A DNA stretch of 64,000 nt, from contig NZ_CP029191.1 in the NCBI RefSeq assembly GCF_008642335.1, positions 6,324,001-6,388,000 of the forward strand. Direction: 5' to 3'. Shown piece by piece: positions 7,020 to 33,095 of the stretch (position 1 is its first letter; the number at the start of each line of letters is the position of its first letter). The notes under the pieces are model-generated. The model worked only from the letters and a program-made list of their open reading frames with translations, had not been told where the DNA came from and made no database searches. The stretch comes from Streptomyces venezuelae (GTDB lineage Bacteria; Actinomycetota; Actinomycetes; Streptomycetales; Streptomycetaceae). The translations under genes were made by a program, and so were the position numbers.

Positions 7020-7638
7020 GATGGCTCTCCTCCAGGGTGCGGTTGCGCCACGCCTGCGGCGCGCTTCCTCCGTCCACCCTACTTGTCGGTAACTACGTGG
7101 CCAAGGGCGACGTCGGCGAGGCAAAGGTCACACTCCCGCGGCGGCCTCTTCCCGCACCCCACAGCCGGGCCTGCCCCGCCGCTCCGCGGCGGATTCCCCC
7201 CACCCACCCACCCGTTCACCCCGCACGTATATGCCCCGTAGGGGCGGGGTCTCGCTTGTCTGCCGCGGACCGCTGGGCTCGCCCTACCCCGCCGCTCCGC
7301 GGCGGACCCGACCCACCCGCCCACCCGTGCGCCCCGCACGTTCGTGTGCCGTAGGGGCGGGGCGGCTCGTTCGCCGTGCGGTGCGGGGTGAACGGGTGGG
7401 CGGGTGGGAGTGATCCGCCGCGAAGCGGCGGCACAGGGGCGCCTGAGTGTCTCGTTCACCAGGCGGGTGCGTGGGTGTGGGCCCTTGGCAGCGGCGAGGC
7501 ATGGGGCGGCGGCCCCTGGCAGGCGACGGGTTCTCCGCCCCTACGGGGCATATACGTGCGGGGTGAACGGGCGGGCGGGTGGGTGGAATCCGCCGCGGAG
7601 CGGCGGGGTAGGGGTCGCCACTGGGCGGCGCCGTGGGG
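7020..7638. repeat. 619-bp intergenic region with four copies of a ~75-bp palindromic repeat
   Basis: No credible gene lies here. The spacer carries two direct copies (about 7174-7249 and 7287-7362) and two inverted copies (about 7381-7433, shortened, and 7535-7610) of one repeat. Each copy has a 7-bp stem hairpin core (CCGCCGC with a TCC or near-identical loop) plus a Pro-codon-like C-rich tract. The full copies also have a second small dyad ending in CGTAGGGGCGG. The first and last copies are nearly identical in opposite orientation and could pair over about 75 bases. The region lies downstream of rnd and upstream of fadA, so hairpins near 7600 may end rnd transcription, while the fadA promoter should be close to 7030-7150. 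Confidence 0.8.
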
Positions 7639-8904
7639 TCAGGTGAGGGCCGTTACCAGGGCCGGGGTTACCTGGGTGATTTGCCAGGGGCGGGCGCCGT
7701 GCGAGGCGAGCGCCGCCGCGACAGAGGCTTCGTCGACCTGCACCGGCGGCTCCCAGCACACCCGCCGCACCGTATCCGGGGTGATCAGGTTCTCCTGGGG
7801 CATGTTGAGCTGCTCCGCCAGAGAGGAGATCGCCGCGCGCGCGGCGGAGAGCCGCGCCGCCGCCGCCGGGTCCCGGTCCGCCCAGGACCGGGGAGGCGGC
7901 GGACCGGTCACCGCTTGGCCCGGCTGCGGAAGCTCCGCGTCGGGCAGCGCCTTCGCGCGGTCGACCGCCGCCTGCCACTGCTCCAGCTGCCGCCGCCCCA
8001 TCCGGTGCCCGAAGCCCGACAACCCCGCCAGCGCGTGCACGTTCGGCGGCAGTCCGAGCGCCGCCTCGACGATCGCCCCGTCGCTGAGCACCTTGCCCGG
8101 CGACACGTCACGCCGCTGGGCCACCTTGTCGCGGGCGGTCCAGAGCTCTCGTACGACCGCCATCTGACGGCGACGGCGGACCTTGTGCATACCGGACGTG
8201 CGGCGCCAGGGGTCCTTGCGGGGCGGAGCCGGCGGCGCCGACGCGATGGCGTCGAACTCCTCGCGGGCCCACTCCAGCTTGCCCTGCCGGTCGAGCTCCT
8301 TCTCCAGCGCGTCGCGCAGGTCGACGAGGAGCTCGACGTCGAGTGCCGCGTAGCGGAGCCAGGGCTCGGGGAGCGGGCGGGTCGACCAGTCGACCGCGGA
8401 GTGGCCCTTCTCCAGGACGTAGCCGAGCACGCTCTCCACCATCGCCCCGAGACCCACGCGCGGGAACCCGGCGAGGCGCCCCGCGAGCTCCGTGTCGAAG
8501 AGCCGGGAGGGGACCATGCCTATTTCGCGCAGGCACGGCAGGTCCTGCGTGGCCGCGTGCAGGACCCACTCCGCGTCGCCGATGGCCGCGCCGAGCCCGG
8601 AGAGGTCGGGGCAGGCGACGGGGTCGATGAGCGCGGTGCCCGCGCCCTCGCGGCGGAGCTGGACGAGATAGGCCCGCTGTCCGTACCGGTAGCCGGACGC
8701 GCGCTCGGCGTCGACGGCGACGGGTCCGGTGCCGCCGGCGTACGCGGCGATCATCTCCGCGAGGGCCTCCTCGTCGGCGATCACCGGCGGAATGCCGTCG
8801 CGGGGCTCGAGCAACGGGGTCGGCGCCGTTTCGACGTCGTCCGGAGGAGCGCCTCCGGTGGTTCGCAGTGAGCTGTCTGCTGCGGTCTCTTGGGCGTCGG
8901 TCAC
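7639..8904 (-). CDS. rnd: Ribonuclease D family 3'-5' exonuclease
   Basis: The product is 421 residues. The DEDD nuclease domain occupies about residues 40-215, with VAVDAERA (first Asp/Glu pair), HAATQDLPCL, and YAALDVELL (last catalytic Asp with its Tyr). An HRDC domain follows at about residues 240-320 (RRRRQMAVVRELWTARD and SPGKVLSDGAIVEAA). RNase D trims the 3' ends of tRNA precursors and other structured RNAs. The GTG at 8904 is used. Downstream lies the repeat spacer; upstream is a hairpin that ends whiI transcription, so rnd is probably its own unit. Confidence 0.9.
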   Translation of the reverse strand: MTDAQETAADSSLRTTGGAPPDDVETAPTPLLEPRDGIPPVIADEEALAEMIAAYAGGTGPVAVDAERASGYRYGQRAYLVQLRREGAGTALIDPVACPDLSGLGAAIGDAEWVLHAATQDLPCLREIGMVPSRLFDTELAGRLAGFPRVGLGAMVESVLGYVLEKGHSAVDWSTRPLPEPWLRYAALDVELLVDLRDALEKELDRQGKLEWAREEFDAIASAPPAPPRKDPWRRTSGMHKVRRRRQMAVVRELWTARDKVAQRRDVSPGKVLSDGAIVEAALGLPPNVHALAGLSGFGHRMGRRQLEQWQAAVDRAKALPDAELPQPGQAVTGPPPPRSWADRDPAAAARLSAARAAISSLAEQLNMPQENLITPDTVRRVCWEPPVQVDEASVAAALASHGARPWQITQVTPALVTALT

Positions 8905-27677: not shown

Positions 27678-27717
27678 ATATGTGCCGGTCAAGTGTCAAC
27701 AAAAGGGGGCCGCCTTC

Positions 27718-28938
27718 ATGCCGCTCGCGGTGTACATGGTCGGGTTGGGCATCTTCACCCAAGGAACCTCGGAGTTCATGCTGTCCGGGCTCCTGCCGGG
27801 CATGGCCGACGACCTCGGGGTGTCCGTCCCCGACGCCGGACTGCTCATCTCGGCGTTCGCGGTCGGCATGGTCGTCGGCGCCCCGCTGCTCGCCGTCGCC
27901 ACCCTCCGGTGGCCGCGGCGCACGGCGCTCGTCTCGCTGCAGGCCGCCTTCGTCGTGGCGCACGTCGTCGGCGCCCTCGCGCCCGGCTACGCCGTCCTGT
28001 TCGTGACCCGCGTGATCGGCGCGCTCGCGTACGCCGGGTACTGGGGCGTCGCCGTGGCCACCGCGGTCGCGCTCGTCCCGGCGGACGCCAAGGCGCGGGC
28101 GGTCGCCGTCGTCGCGGGCGGGCTGACGCTCGCCACCATCGTCGGCGTCCCCGCGGGCACGCTGCTCGGCCAGGTCTCCGACTGGCGCGCCGCGTTCTGG
28201 GCGGTGGCGGCGGCCACCGCGGTCAGCGCGGTCTGCACCCTGCTCGTCGTCCCGGGCGGCCGCGGCGAGGGCGAGCGGCCCTCCGTCGGGGCCGAACTGC
28301 GCGCCATGGCGCGGCCGCAACTCTGGCTCTCGTACGCCGTGACCGCCTTCGCCTTCGGCGCCGTCATCGTCACCTTCAGCTACCTCGCCGCCCTGCTCAC
28401 CGAGGTGACCGGGGTGTCCGAAGGGTGGGTGCCCGCGGTCCTCGCGCTGTTCGGCGTCGGCGGGATGGCGGGCATCGTGATCGGCGGACGCACCGGCCAG
28501 ACACGGCCCCTCGGCACGCTCGGCGCGGGGCTCGGCGCCCTCGCCGTCTTCTCCGCGCTGCTCGCGCTGACGGCACACGTCACGGCCGCCGTGATCGCCC
28601 TCGTCTTCCTGCTCGGCCTCGTCGGCTACGTCACCAACCCCGCCCTGCAGTCACGGGTGTTCGCCCTCGCGCCGGGCGCGCCCACGCTGGTCGGCGCGAC
28701 CAACACGGCCGCGTTCAACGTCGGCAACACGGTCGCCCCGCTCCTCGGCGGCCTGACCATCGACGCCGGGTACGGCTACGCCTCGGTGGCCTGGGTCGGC
28801 GCCGCGCTGGCGGCAGTGGGGGCGGCGGGCGTGCTGTGGGCGGCGGTGCTGCAGCGGCGGACGGCGGGCGGTGCGTTTTGTAAGTCCGTTCCAAAACGTC
28901 TACCGTGGGGCCATGGCCAGACCCCGGGAGTTCGATGA
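27718..28938 (+). CDS. MFS drug-efflux transporter (Cmx/CmlR-like, 12 helices)
   Basis: The product is 406 residues with 12 hydrophobic segments. It begins MPLAVYMVGLGIFTQGTSEFMLSGLLPGMADDLGV, characteristic of the DHA1 chloramphenicol-resistance-type branch. The loop motif RWPRR lies after helix 2, and GVPAGTLLGQVSDWR (motif C-like) in helix 5. It likely exports a small molecule with proton antiport. ATG at 27718, with AAAAGGGGG ten bases before. The 3' end overlaps the tetR start by 26 bases and contains the tetR operator, so the regulator's promoter lies inside this gene. Export of the peptide product encoded 0.8 kb downstream is possible but unproven. Confidence 0.85.
   Translation: MPLAVYMVGLGIFTQGTSEFMLSGLLPGMADDLGVSVPDAGLLISAFAVGMVVGAPLLAVATLRWPRRTALVSLQAAFVVAHVVGALAPGYAVLFVTRVIGALAYAGYWGVAVATAVALVPADAKARAVAVVAGGLTLATIVGVPAGTLLGQVSDWRAAFWAVAAATAVSAVCTLLVVPGGRGEGERPSVGAELRAMARPQLWLSYAVTAFAFGAVIVTFSYLAALLTEVTGVSEGWVPAVLALFGVGGMAGIVIGGRTGQTRPLGTLGAGLGALAVFSALLALTAHVTAAVIALVFLLGLVGYVTNPALQSRVFALAPGAPTLVGATNTAAFNVGNTVAPLLGGLTIDAGYGYASVAWVGAALAAVGAAGVLWAAVLQRRTAGGAFCKSVPKRLPWGHGQTPGVR
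28874..28898. promoter_or_regulatory. Operator-like inverted repeat before tetR
   Basis: Seven-bp arms CGTTTTG (28874-28880) and CAAAACG (28892-28898) flank 11 bases, a symmetric 25-bp element 15 bases before the tetR start codon and inside the MFS coding end. This is the normal place for TetR autoregulation. Confidence 0.6.
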
Positions 28939-29518
28939 GGACCGCGTCGTCACCGCGGCCATGGAGACGTTCTGGCGGCACGGGTACGAAGCGACCTCGA
29001 CGCGCGACCTGTGCGACAGCACGGGGCTCGGGCCCTCCAGCCTCTACAACACCTTCGGCGGCAAGCGGCAGCTCTACCTCCGGGCCCTGCGGCGCTACCA
29101 CGACACCGCCACCGAGGAGCAGGTCGCGATCCTGCGCGGCGACGGGTCCGCGAAAGAGCGGCTGCGCGCCATGATGATGCACTCCGTCGACGCCGACCTC
29201 GGTGAGGGCGGCCGGGCGGGCGCGACGGATGCGGCGGGTACACGCGGGTGCTTCGCGATCAACGCGGCCGTCGAGGCCGCCGCGTACGACCCGGAGGTCA
29301 GGGAAGCCGTGCGGCGCAGCTTCGACCGGGTCGAGGACGAGCTGTGCGCGGTCGTCGAGGCGGGGCGCGCCGCGGGGGAGATCCGCGCGACCGGGGACGC
29401 CAGGGTCGTGGCCCGGCGGGTCCAGAGCACGTACTACGGGCTGCGCGTCCTCAGCCGCGTACAGGACGACCGCGACGTCCTCCTCGCCACGGTGGACGGC
29501 GCGCTCGCCGACCTGTGA
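28913..29518 (+). CDS. TetR/AcrR-family transcriptional regulator
   Basis: The product is 201 residues. The N-terminal helix-turn-helix (about 8-50) reads VVTAAMETFWRHGYEATSTRDLCDSTGLGPSSLYNTFGGKRQLYL, a clear TetR DNA-binding domain. The rest is the ligand-sensing helical domain (GCFAINAAVEAA, YYGLRVLSRV) resembling the AcrR/TetR_C_16-like group. It probably represses itself through the inverted repeat just upstream, and possibly the MFS gene. The ATG at 28913 fits domain spacing. It lies 141 bases before the AWYHWY peptide gene, so control of that locus cannot be excluded. Confidence 0.85.
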   Translation: MARPREFDEDRVVTAAMETFWRHGYEATSTRDLCDSTGLGPSSLYNTFGGKRQLYLRALRRYHDTATEEQVAILRGDGSAKERLRAMMMHSVDADLGEGGRAGATDAAGTRGCFAINAAVEAAAYDPEVREAVRRSFDRVEDELCAVVEAGRAAGEIRATGDARVVARRVQSTYYGLRVLSRVQDDRDVLLATVDGALADL

Positions 29519-29659
29519 CGGCGAGCGCGCGCATGCGGACCGCTGACGCTCCGCTCACGCGCGTCGCGTGGCCGTTTATCGGACGTTGATCGGGCGGGTC
29601 GATGCTCCTCGCAGGTCCATGTCCCGCATGGACGCCGACGGAACCGACCGGAGGTACAC

Positions 29660-29740
29660 ATGAAGGTTGTCCGCTCCCTCAAGAAGAAGATCACCGGCGA
29701 GAAGAGCCTCAAGGCGTACGCCTGGTACCACTGGTACTAG
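29660..29740 (+). CDS. RiPP precursor peptide of the tryptorubin/atropopeptide type (core AWYHWY)
   Basis: This 26-residue peptide has a basic leader (MKVVRSLKKK, ITGEKSLKAY) and ends in AWYHWY at the stop codon. The hexapeptide differs at one position from tryptorubin A (AWYIWY), the founding atropopeptide, in which a P450 cross-links aromatic side chains and backbone nitrogens. GGAGG at 29650-29654 is five bases before the ATG, an ideal ribosome site. A stem-loop and then a noncanonical P450 gene follow on the same strand. The leader is short and rich in Lys, as in that family. The product would be a rigid, carbon-carbon and carbon-nitrogen bridged hexapeptide with a central His. The assignment to the family is by motif and context. 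Confidence 0.9.
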   Translation: MKVVRSLKKKITGEKSLKAYAWYHWY

Positions 29741-29752
29741 GCCGGCCCAGTT

Positions 29753-29777
29753 GGTGACGGGCGGCCCGCCTGTCGCC
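29753..29777 (+). terminator. Hairpin between the precursor and P450 genes (attenuator-like)
   Basis: The two arms (29753-29764 and 29766-29777) pair over up to 12 bases, two of them G-T, with the central pairs opening as loop. The element starts 12 bases after the precursor stop and has no T-run. Position between a tiny precursor and its enzyme is typical of partial terminators or stabilising hairpins that keep precursor mRNA in excess. Confidence 0.55.
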
Positions 29778-29869
29778 GACTACAGGGACGTAATGCGCCG
29801 TTGAGGCCCGGGCCCGGCGTGCCGCGAACCGGCCGCCGGGCTCGGCCCTCCCGCCCTGGGAGATCCCCG

Positions 29870-30925
29870 ATGTCCATTTCCGGCACCGACCGGCTCGCGC
29901 GGACCACCGTCTTCACGCCGCGACTCCACGCCCTGCTGCGCGACCACCGCGGCCAGGACGTGTTCCGCCTGGACGACGACACCGTCGGCGTCGCCGGGCC
30001 CGTCCTCACCGACCAGATCCTCGCCGCGCGGCCCGCCACCGAGCTCGAACGCCCCACGTTCAAGCCACTGCACGGCCGTTCCATCCCGCGCACCGAGGCC
30101 GCCACCGTCATGCAGGCCATCGGCCGTGACGTGCGGGCGGCGCTGAAGAAGCCCGTGCCCGGACGGCTCGACCTCTCGGGGGAGTGGCCGCACATCGGCC
30201 ACGTCTACCTGCGCGACCTGATCCTCGGCGCCGACCCGTACCGGCTGCGCATCCTCATGGACCGCACGCTGGAGCTGACGCCCAAGCTCACGTGGACGGT
30301 CATCGCGACCGGCGCCGCCCTGCCCGGCAGGCTCCGCCCCGGCGCGCCCGTCACCAGCATCGCGGGGCTCACGGCGAACGCCGCGACGTACGGCGACCGC
30401 CGCTACGCCATGGGCCTGTACCGGCGCGCCGCCGCGCCCGTCTGCTTCACCGTGTCCACGCTCGTCGCCAACGCGTACTGGCTCGGGGCGCCCTTCGACG
30501 ACGAGACGCCCAACGAGCACATCCTGTACGAGTCCATGCGGCTGCTCCCGCCGTCCTGGAACATCCTGCGCAACGCGTCCCCCGAGTACACCGCCCTCGA
30601 CGCCCGCATCGGCACCGGAGACGACGTCCTGCTCCTGCCCCTGCTCAGCCACCGCGACCCGGAGCTCTGGGACGACCCCGACGTGTTCCGCGCCGACCGC
30701 TGGGCCACCCTGGACCCCGACGACCACCCCGGCTACCTCCCCTTCGGCCACGTCTCCGAGCGCTGCTGGGGCCGCCACATGGTGATGCCCCTGGCCGGCA
30801 TGCTCCTCGACATCCTGCGCGCCGAGGGCACGACGGTCGACCCCCGCCAGACCACGGCGAAGGTGCCGCTCGCCGGACTGCTCGGCGTCGACAAGGTACG
30901 GCTCGTCGGGGCGGGCCGGGGCTAG
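29870..30925 (+). CDS. Cytochrome P450, probable peptide cross-linking enzyme of the AWYHWY peptide
   Basis: The product is 351 residues, short for a P450 (about 400). It keeps the K-helix ESMR (221-224), HRDPELWDDPDVFRADRW and a heme-binding loop PFGHVSERCWG (291-301, Cys299). The loop departs from FGxGxHxCxG. The I-helix region (about 192-206) lacks the usual acid-alcohol pair. Such deviations are common in P450s that couple aromatic residues in peptides. ATG at 29870 with GGGAG upstream is preferred to an ATG at 29801 that would start inside a Pro/Arg-rich non-family stretch. It directly follows the precursor and is followed by a strong terminator, making a two-gene locus. Confidence 0.88.
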   Translation: MSISGTDRLARTTVFTPRLHALLRDHRGQDVFRLDDDTVGVAGPVLTDQILAARPATELERPTFKPLHGRSIPRTEAATVMQAIGRDVRAALKKPVPGRLDLSGEWPHIGHVYLRDLILGADPYRLRILMDRTLELTPKLTWTVIATGAALPGRLRPGAPVTSIAGLTANAATYGDRRYAMGLYRRAAAPVCFTVSTLVANAYWLGAPFDDETPNEHILYESMRLLPPSWNILRNASPEYTALDARIGTGDDVLLLPLLSHRDPELWDDPDVFRADRWATLDPDDHPGYLPFGHVSERCWGRHMVMPLAGMLLDILRAEGTTVDPRQTTAKVPLAGLLGVDKVRLVGAGRG

Positions 30926-30946
30926 AGATGTGAGCAACACCCTGAT

Positions 30947-30977
30947 GTCGGGCGCCAGTTGTGCACTGGCGCCCGAC
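30947..30977 (+). terminator. Strong terminator after the P450 gene
   Basis: A perfect 13-bp stem (30947-30959 with 30965-30977) and a five-base loop TGTGC lie 22 bases after the P450 stop. It closes the peptide-P450 transcription unit. Confidence 0.88.
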
Positions 30978-31215
30978 CGGCATGACAGGGCATGGTGGGA
31001 GTCCGCACTCAGGGAGTGATGAGCATGGCTGCGAACTATCGGCGCATGTGCGCCCGTTCCCACGGGATGTGACCCCGGTCGCCGGGGCCGGCCCCGGACG
31101 CAGCCCTGCCCTCCGACCCACGTCGGACGCGTCTCCGTCGGCCATTCGGCACCCCCCGGAATCCTGAAGGGATTCCGACCGTCACCCGCTCCGCCCTGCC
31201 GACGGAGGAACCGCC

Positions 31216-31395
31216 ATGACCACCATTCTCATCGAACTCGCCGCGGGAACACCTGAGTTCCTGCTCGCCGCTGTCGTCGTGATCGCCGTGACCTTTCTGG
31301 CCGCCCTCGCCATCGCGGTCCGGGGCACGGCCCCGGAGGAACGCGCGGCCGTCCTGCGCGCCTTCGCCCAGATCCTGCCGGTGCGACGGAGATAG
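31216..31395 (+). CDS. Small single-helix membrane protein
   Basis: The product is 59 residues. It starts with MTTILIELA, has one membrane helix at about 13-33 (EFLLAAVVVIAVTFLAALAIAV) and ends with a basic cytosolic-type tail (PVRRR) containing EERAAVLRAFAQ. GGAGGAA lies seven bases before the ATG, which supports real translation. It is not recognised. Upstream, between the P450 terminator and this gene (30978-31215), I see only a 8-bp stem hairpin near 31157-31177 and no other gene. Downstream is the sphingomyelinase gene. Confidence 0.6.
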   Translation: MTTILIELAAGTPEFLLAAVVVIAVTFLAALAIAVRGTAPEERAAVLRAFAQILPVRRR

Positions 31396-31519
31396 GAGGC
31401 GGGTGAACGGGCGGGCCCGAGAAGCGCGGACTGCGTTCACGCGATGTATCCCCAGGCGTAATCGCAGCTGCTTGGATGTGCGGGCCCGCAGCAATCACCC
31501 CCCACTCCGAGGAGTCTCC

Positions 31520-32503
31520 GTGTCGCATGCAGTGCCGCGCAGGACCCGTGCCGCTGTCGTCGCCGCCGCGGTCGCCGGTGCCACGCTCGTCGCCGTCGGC
31601 CCGGCGGCCGCCGCCGACGCGTCCGCCGCGCCGCCGCCGCTCAAGGTGCTCACGTACAACACCTTCCTGTTCAGCAAGACGCTCTACCCGAACTGGGGGC
31701 AGGACCACCGGGCGAAGGCGATACCGGCCGCCGACTTCTTCCGGGGGCAGGACGTCGTCGTGCTCCAGGAGGCGTTCGACAACTCCTCGTCCGACGCGCT
31801 CAAGGCGAACGCGGCGGGGCGCTATCCGCACCAGACGCCCGTCATGGGGCGCGGGAAGAGCGGGTGGGACGCCACCGGCGGTGCGTACTCGTCCGTGACG
31901 CCGGAGGACGGTGGCGTGACCGTGCTCAGCAAGTGGCCGATCGTGCGCAAGGAGCAGTACGTCTACAAGGACGCCTGTGGGTCCGACGCGTACTCCAACA
32001 AGGGCTTCGTCTACGCCGTGCTGGACGTGAACGGGGTCAGGACGCACGTCGTCGGCACCCACGCCCAGTCCACCGACCCCGGCTGCGGCAGCGGCGAGGC
32101 CGCGGCGACCCGCGCGAAACAGTTCAAGGAGATGGACGCCTTCCTGGACGCCAAGAACATCCCCGCCGGGGAACAGGTCGTCGTGGCCGGGGACTTCAAC
32201 GTCGACTCGCGCAGCCCCGAGTACGCCTCGATGCTCGCCGACGCGGGCCTCGCCCCCGCCGACGGCCGCACCGGCCACCCGTACTCCTTCGACACCCGGG
32301 ACAACTCGATCGCCGCCGAGCGCTACCCCGACGACCCCCGCGAGGACCTGGACCACGTCCTGCACCGCAAGGGCCACGCCCGCCCCGCCACCTGGCACAA
32401 CAACGTGATCAAGGAGCAGAGCGCGCCCTGGACGGTCTCCAGCTGGGGCAAGGAGTACACCTACACGAACCTGTCGGACCACTACCCCGTGACTGCTGGA
32501 TAG
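31520..32503 (+). CDS. Secreted sphingomyelinase C (neutral-type phosphodiesterase)
   Basis: The product is 327 residues. A twin-arginine-containing signal peptide (RRTRAAVVAAAVAGATL, cleavage near AAAADA) is followed by the exonuclease-endonuclease-phosphatase fold. Visible active-site elements are LTYNTFLF, VVVLQEAFD (metal-binding Glu), VGTHAQST, VVVAGDFNVDS (Asp/Asn) and the final LSDHYPV (catalytic His). The EDLDHVLH segment is characteristic of bacterial sphingomyelinases, which cleave sphingomyelin to ceramide and phosphocholine. The GTG start at 31520 has GAGGAG upstream. The gene converges with the DinB gene, 16 bases between stops. Confidence 0.88.
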   Translation: MSHAVPRRTRAAVVAAAVAGATLVAVGPAAAADASAAPPPLKVLTYNTFLFSKTLYPNWGQDHRAKAIPAADFFRGQDVVVLQEAFDNSSSDALKANAAGRYPHQTPVMGRGKSGWDATGGAYSSVTPEDGGVTVLSKWPIVRKEQYVYKDACGSDAYSNKGFVYAVLDVNGVRTHVVGTHAQSTDPGCGSGEAAATRAKQFKEMDAFLDAKNIPAGEQVVVAGDFNVDSRSPEYASMLADAGLAPADGRTGHPYSFDTRDNSIAAERYPDDPREDLDHVLHRKGHARPATWHNNVIKEQSAPWTVSSWGKEYTYTNLSDHYPVTAG

Positions 32504-32519
32504 GGTCCACCGGCACCTG

Positions 32520-33095
32520 CTACTGGCCCACTCTTCCGTCGACGCACTCGCGCAGCAGGTCCGCGTGTCCGCAGTGCCGCGCGTACTCCTCGACGCGGTG
32601 CACCAACAGCTCGCGGACCGACGTGCTGTCCTTGCCGAGCCGCTCGCCCAGGTCCGGGTGGGCGGCGAGGACCGCGTCGGTCGCGGCCTGCTCGCGTTCC
32701 AGCGCGGCGAACGCCTCGTCGACCACCGCCGGGTCCGCGACCGCACCGTGGAAGTCCGCGTCCTTCGGGCCCCACAGCCGCGGAGCCTGGTCCTCGCTGA
32801 TCCAGTTGCGCCAGTCCCGCTCCACCTCGGCGAGATGGCGGACCAGGCCGAGGAGCGACATCGGCGACGGAGGCACCGAACGGCGGGCGAGCTGCTCCGC
32901 GTCCAGGCCCTCGCACTTCATCCGCAGGGTCATGCGGTACCCCGACAGGAAGTCGAGCAGCGTCGGCAGCTCGCCGTCCGGACTGTTCCCCTCGCTGTCG
33001 CGCGGGTCGTCGTCCGGATCGGCCCACATGTCGGGGTAGATGGTGGCCCGGCCCCATCGCTCGGGGCGGTCGCTCAGGTCGCTCTGGTCGCTCAT
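32520..33095 (-). CDS. DinB-family (DUF664) protein
   Basis: The product is 191 residues and cytosolic. It has the DinB/DUF664 four-helix pattern: LLDFLSGYRMTLRMKCEGLDAEQLARR, MSLLGLVRHLAEVERDWRNWI (with the first metal-site-type His), and TSVRELLVHRVEEYARHCGHADLLREC (two more His). The three-histidine arrangement places it with the metal-binding DinB enzymes, some of which are mycothiol- or bacillithiol-dependent S-transferases. The actual substrate is unknown. The ATG at 33095 begins a polar N-terminal extension. Confidence 0.85.
   Translation of the reverse strand: MSDQSDLSDRPERWGRATIYPDMWADPDDDPRDSEGNSPDGELPTLLDFLSGYRMTLRMKCEGLDAEQLARRSVPPSPMSLLGLVRHLAEVERDWRNWISEDQAPRLWGPKDADFHGAVADPAVVDEAFAALEREQAATDAVLAAHPDLGERLGKDSTSVRELLVHRVEEYARHCGHADLLRECVDGRVGQ

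Follow-up and report, generated by a model that had tools for sequence, protein, structure and literature searches.

Sequence analysis of a tryptorubin-family (atropopeptide) locus with the core AWYHWY in Streptomyces venezuelae

The locus and its flanks

The stretch of Streptomyces venezuelae DNA analysed here, 64,000 nucleotides in all and referred to below as the window, carries on its forward strand a very small gene followed by a cytochrome P450 gene (Table 1). The small gene reads as 26 codons from an ATG start and encodes the 26-residue peptide MKVVRSLKKKITGEKSLKAYAWYHWY, which the NCBIfam model NF038372.1 (“tryptorubin family RiPP precursor”) matches from end to end at 56.6 bits against a cut-off of 33. 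The sequence GGAGGT before it is the same in all six aligned rows of the window’s clade. A preliminary description had proposed a tiny gene with a ribosome site and a peptide ending in AWYHWY, and both the GGAGG site and the 56.6-bit match confirm it.

Pfam PF00067 recognises only residues 218-305 of the P450, and its AF2 model, with a mean pLDDT of 83.6, has a fold that matches P450s. Cys299, E221 and R224 are invariant across 50 aligned P450 sequences, the last two forming what we take to be the ExxR motif, and the GGAG before the gene is retained in 6 of 6 rows of the clade. Among the loci examined, the nearest P450 is that of S. atriruber, which is 93% identical (27 differing positions) and adjoins an AWYIWY precursor. 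A P450 that shares 71% identity over 346 columns comes from S. laurentii; in that species LauB1 and LauA together yielded tryptorubin B. Elsewhere in the window genome the P450 search found two matches, at 30-32% identity, and the precursor model matches the genome only once, so that it seems to hold a single locus of tryptorubin type.

Table 1. Features of the locus, in window coordinates
Feature	Position	Strand	Basis
Upstream block CGTTTATCGGACGTTGATCG	29573..29592	+	two GTTKATCG units 11 nt apart; clade conservation
Shine-Dalgarno GGAGG, precursor gene	29650..29654	+	sequence reading; 5 bases before ATG
Precursor gene, product MKVVRSLKKKITGEKSLKAYAWYHWY	29660..29740	+	NF038372.1 match; homologues adjoin homologous P450s
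KSLK leader motif, residues 15-18	29702..29713	+	defining motif in PMC11450843; K(-3) and L(-4) conserved on tree
Core hexapeptide AWYHWY, residues 21-26	29720..29737	+	aligns with AWYIWY, AWYLWY and AWYFWY cores of relatives
Intercistronic hairpin	29803..29850	+	between precursor stop and P450 start; shuffle test, family excess, compensatory changes
Ribosome site GGGAG, P450 gene	29858..29862	+	sequence reading
Atropopeptide-type cytochrome P450, 351 aa	29870..30925	+	Pfam PF00067; homology; P450 fold model
3' hairpin (possible U-less terminator)	30947..30977	+	13-bp perfect stem, no T run; z -3.67

The block upstream of the precursor gene reads GTTTATCG-N3-GTTGATCG in the window and is possibly a regulator site. 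Its clade pattern, GTTYAWCG-N3-GTTGATCG, occurs in 6 of 97 upstream regions, namely all six rows of the window’s clade and none of the other 91, and a second pair, TTGAC-N18-23-KKYACT, occurs in 36 of the 97 (shuffle mean 0.16) and in none of that clade; as the patterns were written after the sequences had been viewed and many rows are related, both counts serve as leads only. The genome has this one exact match of the block and four others at 2-3 mismatches, one of which precedes a gene whose product looks WhiB-like by eye.

At the 3' end, the strong terminator with which the preliminary description had closed the unit could not be upheld: the hairpin there is weak evidence, and a better conserved one, absent from that description, lies between the genes. 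Measured against an intrinsic terminator (a G+C-rich stem and a T run), it has the stem and lacks the T run, the terminator scan found no terminator-like site at 30947-30977, and it is rejected as a conserved element of the unit, since the stem does not recur in S. silaceus, S. atriruber or WAC 01529. In S. atriruber (L049) a convergent methyltransferase gene (Pfam Methyltransf_25; 7050-7817, minus strand) directly follows the P450 gene; it is broken into shorter frames in L106, and the window and S. silaceus carry different sequence there.

Upstream of the locus, at 27682-29518, lie a Cmx/CmrA-type MFS exporter gene (487.5 bits, cut-off 400) and then a TetR-family regulator gene. All 5 close relatives have both genes next to the locus and none of 7 further loci searched (L052-L056, L081, L116) does, which does not support them as part of the cluster; the next downstream gene, of the exo/endonuclease/phosphatase family, is likewise present in all 5, so plain synteny explains this neighbourhood. 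As to a mobile origin, the locus has no phage match, and its plasmid matches comprise 18 records from Streptomyces clavuligerus and Embleya.

Family membership and distribution

Judged by its sequence, the window locus is a genuine two-gene atropopeptide (tryptorubin-family) RiPP locus, a member of a family already known. PMC11450843 defines atropopeptides by a family P450, a KSLK motif and Trp at core position 2, and the bitryptide subfamily by an xWxxWx core together with KSLK. The leader of the window peptide has KSLK at residues 15-18 and the core AWYHWY has Trp at position 2, as well as at position 5 as in bitryptides; the P450 is placed in the family by the precursor neighbours of its homologues in 46 of 46 genomes. 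Two other memberships were ruled out. Biarylitides are described with a five-residue precursor from an 18-bp gene, against 26 residues here, and roseovertin-like cyptides follow a Trp(i)-His(i+3) spacing, whereas the window core has His at i+2 and Trp at i+3.

The pair is widespread within the genus. Among 392 same-genus genomes, with five candidates per genome scored in the P450 search, the precursor exceeded the cut-off in 42 (44 at E <= 0.001) and the P450 reached E <= 1e-60 in 48; the P450s of two of the latter (G241, G303) are distant, at 39-40% identity, and the remaining 46 genomes have a P450 of at least 60% identity. Comparing the coordinates of both searches places a model-scored precursor just upstream of it in 44 of the 46; in the remaining pair, G304 and G351, the precursors are of the KSQPSLK and KNEPSLK types and go unreported by the NCBIfam model. 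The proposal of a minimal atropopeptide locus is thereby borne out, with 46 of 392 genomes having such a P450 and all 46 a precursor within about 300 bases upstream. Two checks set beforehand, on a P450 belonging to an unrelated clade and on conservation of the peptide beside it in relatives, point the same way: homologues of at least 60% identity sit beside tryptorubin-type precursors, and all 46 genomes have the peptide next to the enzyme gene.

Beyond the genus, a family-wide sample, which overlaps the genus sample, gave 49 of 394 genomes above the precursor cut-off, in 7 of 17 genera, and the best 80 of 118 P450 relatives in the named collection span Streptomycetaceae, Pseudonocardiaceae and several Pseudomonadota. 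These 80, 44 others and the window made up a first set of 125 loci, 101 of them with distinct P450s; all 101 have such a precursor upstream (97 by pattern, four by a wider look). Adding 27 loci and removing duplicates gave 117 distinct P450s with an assigned core (four assigned by hand). Four of 20 extra precursors entered the 117-row tree and 16 were left out, as were L207, L208, L212 and L213; the rows of the P450 tree exclude any characterised P450.

Several relatives depart from the usual sequences. Leader motifs outside the published list are RSFK in L116 (core AWYHWY), TSLK in L123 (AWALWY) and KNLK in L062 and L025 (AWYIWY), and L204 (genome G453) has the core AWYRWV, with Arg at position 4. 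According to PMC12352619, ScaB rejects Arg at this position (I25R), so the natural L204 pair could show how Arg is tolerated.

The hairpin between the two genes

From the precursor stop to the P450 start there are 129 bases, and they hold a long predicted stem-loop. For region 29778-29869 of the window z is -2.90, with 3 of 200 shuffles as good. A best hairpin of -25 kcal/mol or lower occurs in 112 of 117 loci, a level that G+C-rich shuffles reach in 53 of 115. The stricter test, on the 115 regions of at least 45 nt (two of the 117 left out), gave a median z of -3.5, and 77 of 115 regions beat all 40 dinucleotide shuffles; for the control, sequence ahead of the precursor gene at these loci, the median z was -0.8 and 14 of 96 beat all shuffles. 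Of the 11 regions from Pseudomonadota, 8 beat 39 or all of their 40 shuffles. At 17 of the 115 loci, the AWYHWY loci L081 and L116 among them, the hairpin is equalled by more than 4 shuffles out of 40, and the S. rimosus-type loci L092, L098 and L152 are without it.

Compensatory changes were assessed in 28 loci with similar-looking arms, 24 of which were aligned (L087, L096, L165 and L166 were dropped by hand). The choice of loci, together with a structure drawn from them, favours the hairpin and related rows are not independent, and with this reservation the drawn structure has 87.7% of cells paired, against 36-46% when slid, 26 cells changed on both sides, against 9.7 in shuffles, and a covariation score of 0.227, against 0.140 (0 of 500 shuffles as high for either). 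Two coarser measures give a less clear picture: changes on both sides occur in 7 of 17 pairs, a number reached by 19 of 500 shuffles, and there are 18 further pair types, a number reached by 45 of 500. RNAalifold independently recovered 11 pairs of the drawn structure.

The T run expected of a terminator is mostly missing, at least five T in the next 10 nt being found in 7 of 112 loci. Within 28000-33000 Rfam has nothing at gathering score, and the words “hairpin”, “terminator”, “stem-loop” and “intergenic” are absent from the main text of either atropopeptide paper. PMC5974421 reports an inverted repeat at the same site in lasso-peptide clusters, which suggests that the hairpin works like a known RiPP device; it would be a partial 3' end or a processing or stability site that favours the precursor over the P450. 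In PMC11450843, a ribosome site added before svaB raised the yield 100-fold, consistent with P450 levels being held down. If the hairpin does limit P450 supply, it would explain that gain and offer a practical handle on yield.

The histidine, the predicted product and known systems

Among the 117 loci the core is AWYIWY in 34, AWYLWY in 24, AWYFWY in 20, AWYHWY in 13 (the window included) and AWYGWI in 12, and ten other cores account for 14. The 13 distinct AWYHWY loci belong to several lineages, and on this sequence comparison the core is recurrent, not unique. The string WYHWY is absent from the main text of either atropopeptide paper, whose core lists sit in supplementary files, and a literature text search for it gave only matches unrelated by title. 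On the careful 101-row tree the AWYHWY label (nine rows, L116 uncounted) needs five changes, at least three of them forced by well-supported branches, and on the quick 117-row tree His at position 4 needs seven; change counts on P450 trees cannot separate gain from loss. The backgrounds of the His are the window’s clade, the L052/L054/L135/L165 group, L081, L116 and L203. In the window’s clade His is found in five of six rows; the exception is the sister, S. atriruber, with Ile, which is therefore likelier the later state there. Within the close L052-L055/L134/L135 group both His and Leu occur.

Core positions 1 to 6 show 4, 0, 1, 26, 0 and 6 changes on the 117-row tree, the cross-linking residues W2, Y3 and W5 thus accounting for 0, 1 and 0. 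In the leader the counts are 0 at K(-3), 1 at L(-4), 3 at S(-5), 9 at K(-6) and 20-28 at positions -7 to -12, where they may be inflated, as leader positions were numbered back from the C-terminus with no gaps allowed. Part of the invariance at W2 and K follows from how the loci were chosen: they were sampled by similarity to the window’s P450, and, outside the four hand-assigned rows, the search pattern called for Trp as well as a KSLK-like motif. The 26 changes at position 4 owe nothing to this selection. Position 4 thus appears to drift like a loose leader site within a frozen cross-linking frame. The natural AWYxWY-type cores of the 117 loci form a substitution series (I, L, F, G, H, A, V, R) at this position with the frame fixed, which makes its effect on bridging and activity directly testable, and the window and S. 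atriruber provide a His/Ile pair with 93%-identical P450s.

The preliminary description had regarded the His as a replacement that could alter the cross-links or bind metal. This is not supported, in view of the 13 of 117 loci that share the core, the 26 changes at position 4, the P450 columns and a mutant of ScaA. In a comparison of low power, none of the 12 top-ranked P450 columns (by enrichment, out of 40 tested) agrees with the His in more than 1.5 of the 5 independent contrasts. According to PMC12352619, ScaB cyclises ScaA-I25H, in which His takes the same core position, directly ahead of the second Trp, and a WPHWY product was observed; as ScaB makes one bond only, this shows tolerance of His rather than a three-bridge cage around it. 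A variable position, no tracking column among those 12, a 93%-identical P450 that serves Ile and an accepted ScaA-I25H together make the His most likely a spectator side chain, by sequence and by analogy, and a His cross-link or metal binding in the window product is unsupported.

The best explanation, to which we give a probability of about 0.75, is an atropopeptide locus whose P450 would cross-link W22, Y23 and W25 of AWYHWY into a tryptorubin-like cage, with the His likely free. By analogy with characterised relatives, the P450 would grip the leader at KSLK and form W2-Y3 C-N, W2-W5 C-C and W5-backbone C-N bonds with a net loss of 4 H. Release of AWYHWY (921.368) by a housekeeping protease would follow, and loss of Ala would give WYHWY (850.331). 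On this analogy the product would most likely be AWYHWY that has lost 4 H (m/z 921.368) and keeps its imidazole free. The hairpin, for its part, would be a processing site or partial 3' end through which more precursor than P450 is made.

The number of bridges may differ from this expectation. The same P450, SvaB, gives one- and three-bridge products (PMC11450843) and ScaB makes one bond only, even on the WYIWY of LauA (PMC12352619), so the core alone does not set the bridge pattern. Both precedents lend some weight to a reduced, scabrirubin-like product with a single Trp-Trp bond (-2 H), trimmed to WYHW or WYHWY. The neighbouring rows of the P450 tree, which contains no characterised P450, serve AWYxWY cores, and the 71%-identical P450 comes from S. 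laurentii, whose enzyme makes three bridges; such a product is therefore unlikely here. Participation of His4, with the P450 bonding the imidazole to Trp or Tyr or a free imidazole binding metal in a new atropopeptide subtype, seems slightly less probable again. Related RiPP P450s do join Trp or Tyr to His, as described for SroB (Trp(i)-His(i+3)) and biarylitides, and recurrence of His4 in several lineages (13 of 117) may mean selection. Against this stand the AWYIWY precursor served by the nearest P450 examined, the mixture of His and Leu in the L052-L055/L134/L135 group, the 12 top-ranked P450 columns (at most 1.5 of 5 contrasts, at low power) and the i+3 position of His in roseovertin-like cores, compared with i+2 here.

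A locus with intact genes that are unexpressed or do not cooperate is the most remote of the alternatives: its 3' end varies among close relatives, but the frames and ribosome sites are intact, the peptide is conserved in 6 of 6 clade rows and the intercistronic hairpin covaries. A broader scenario can be imagined in which AWYHWY evolved repeatedly as a cage that presents, or cross-links through, an imidazole, an ionisable or metal-binding subtype, with a covarying hairpin setting the precursor-to-P450 ratio family-wide; in its entirety we consider it improbable, about on a par with the single-bond product.

The window locus shares parts of its design with several known systems. Roseovertin-like cyptides also have a P450 next to a small precursor, with His at i+3 from Trp rather than at i+2. 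The P450s of L209, L210 and L211, loci that are probably of roseovertin type, are 38-40% identical to that of the window and adjoin precursors that end in DEDLA(N/S)HAWVLHVI and lack KSLK. Lasso-peptide clusters, according to PMC5974421, likewise have a terminator-like inverted repeat between the precursor and maturase genes; they are another RiPP class with other enzymes, and the hairpin of the window type is usually without a T run. Scabrirubin (ScaA/ScaB, TWFIWYS) and varsorubin (SvaA/SvaB, SWYQWL) fall under the same family definition as the window locus, but have different core ends and bridge numbers; the P450 of L212, whose core is TWFIWYS, is 63% identical to that of the window. A polar residue at position 4 is found there as the natural Gln of the SvaA core and the mutant His of ScaA-I25H, and the window has a natural His. 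Closest of all are the tryptorubin and laurentirubin clusters (trp and lau; core AWYIWY), which likewise combine a precursor with KSLK and a family P450. The lau cluster includes a second P450, LauB2, whereas none adjoins the window locus; W2, Y3, W5 and Y6 are identical in the two cores, and position 4 is Ile in trp and lau and His in the window.
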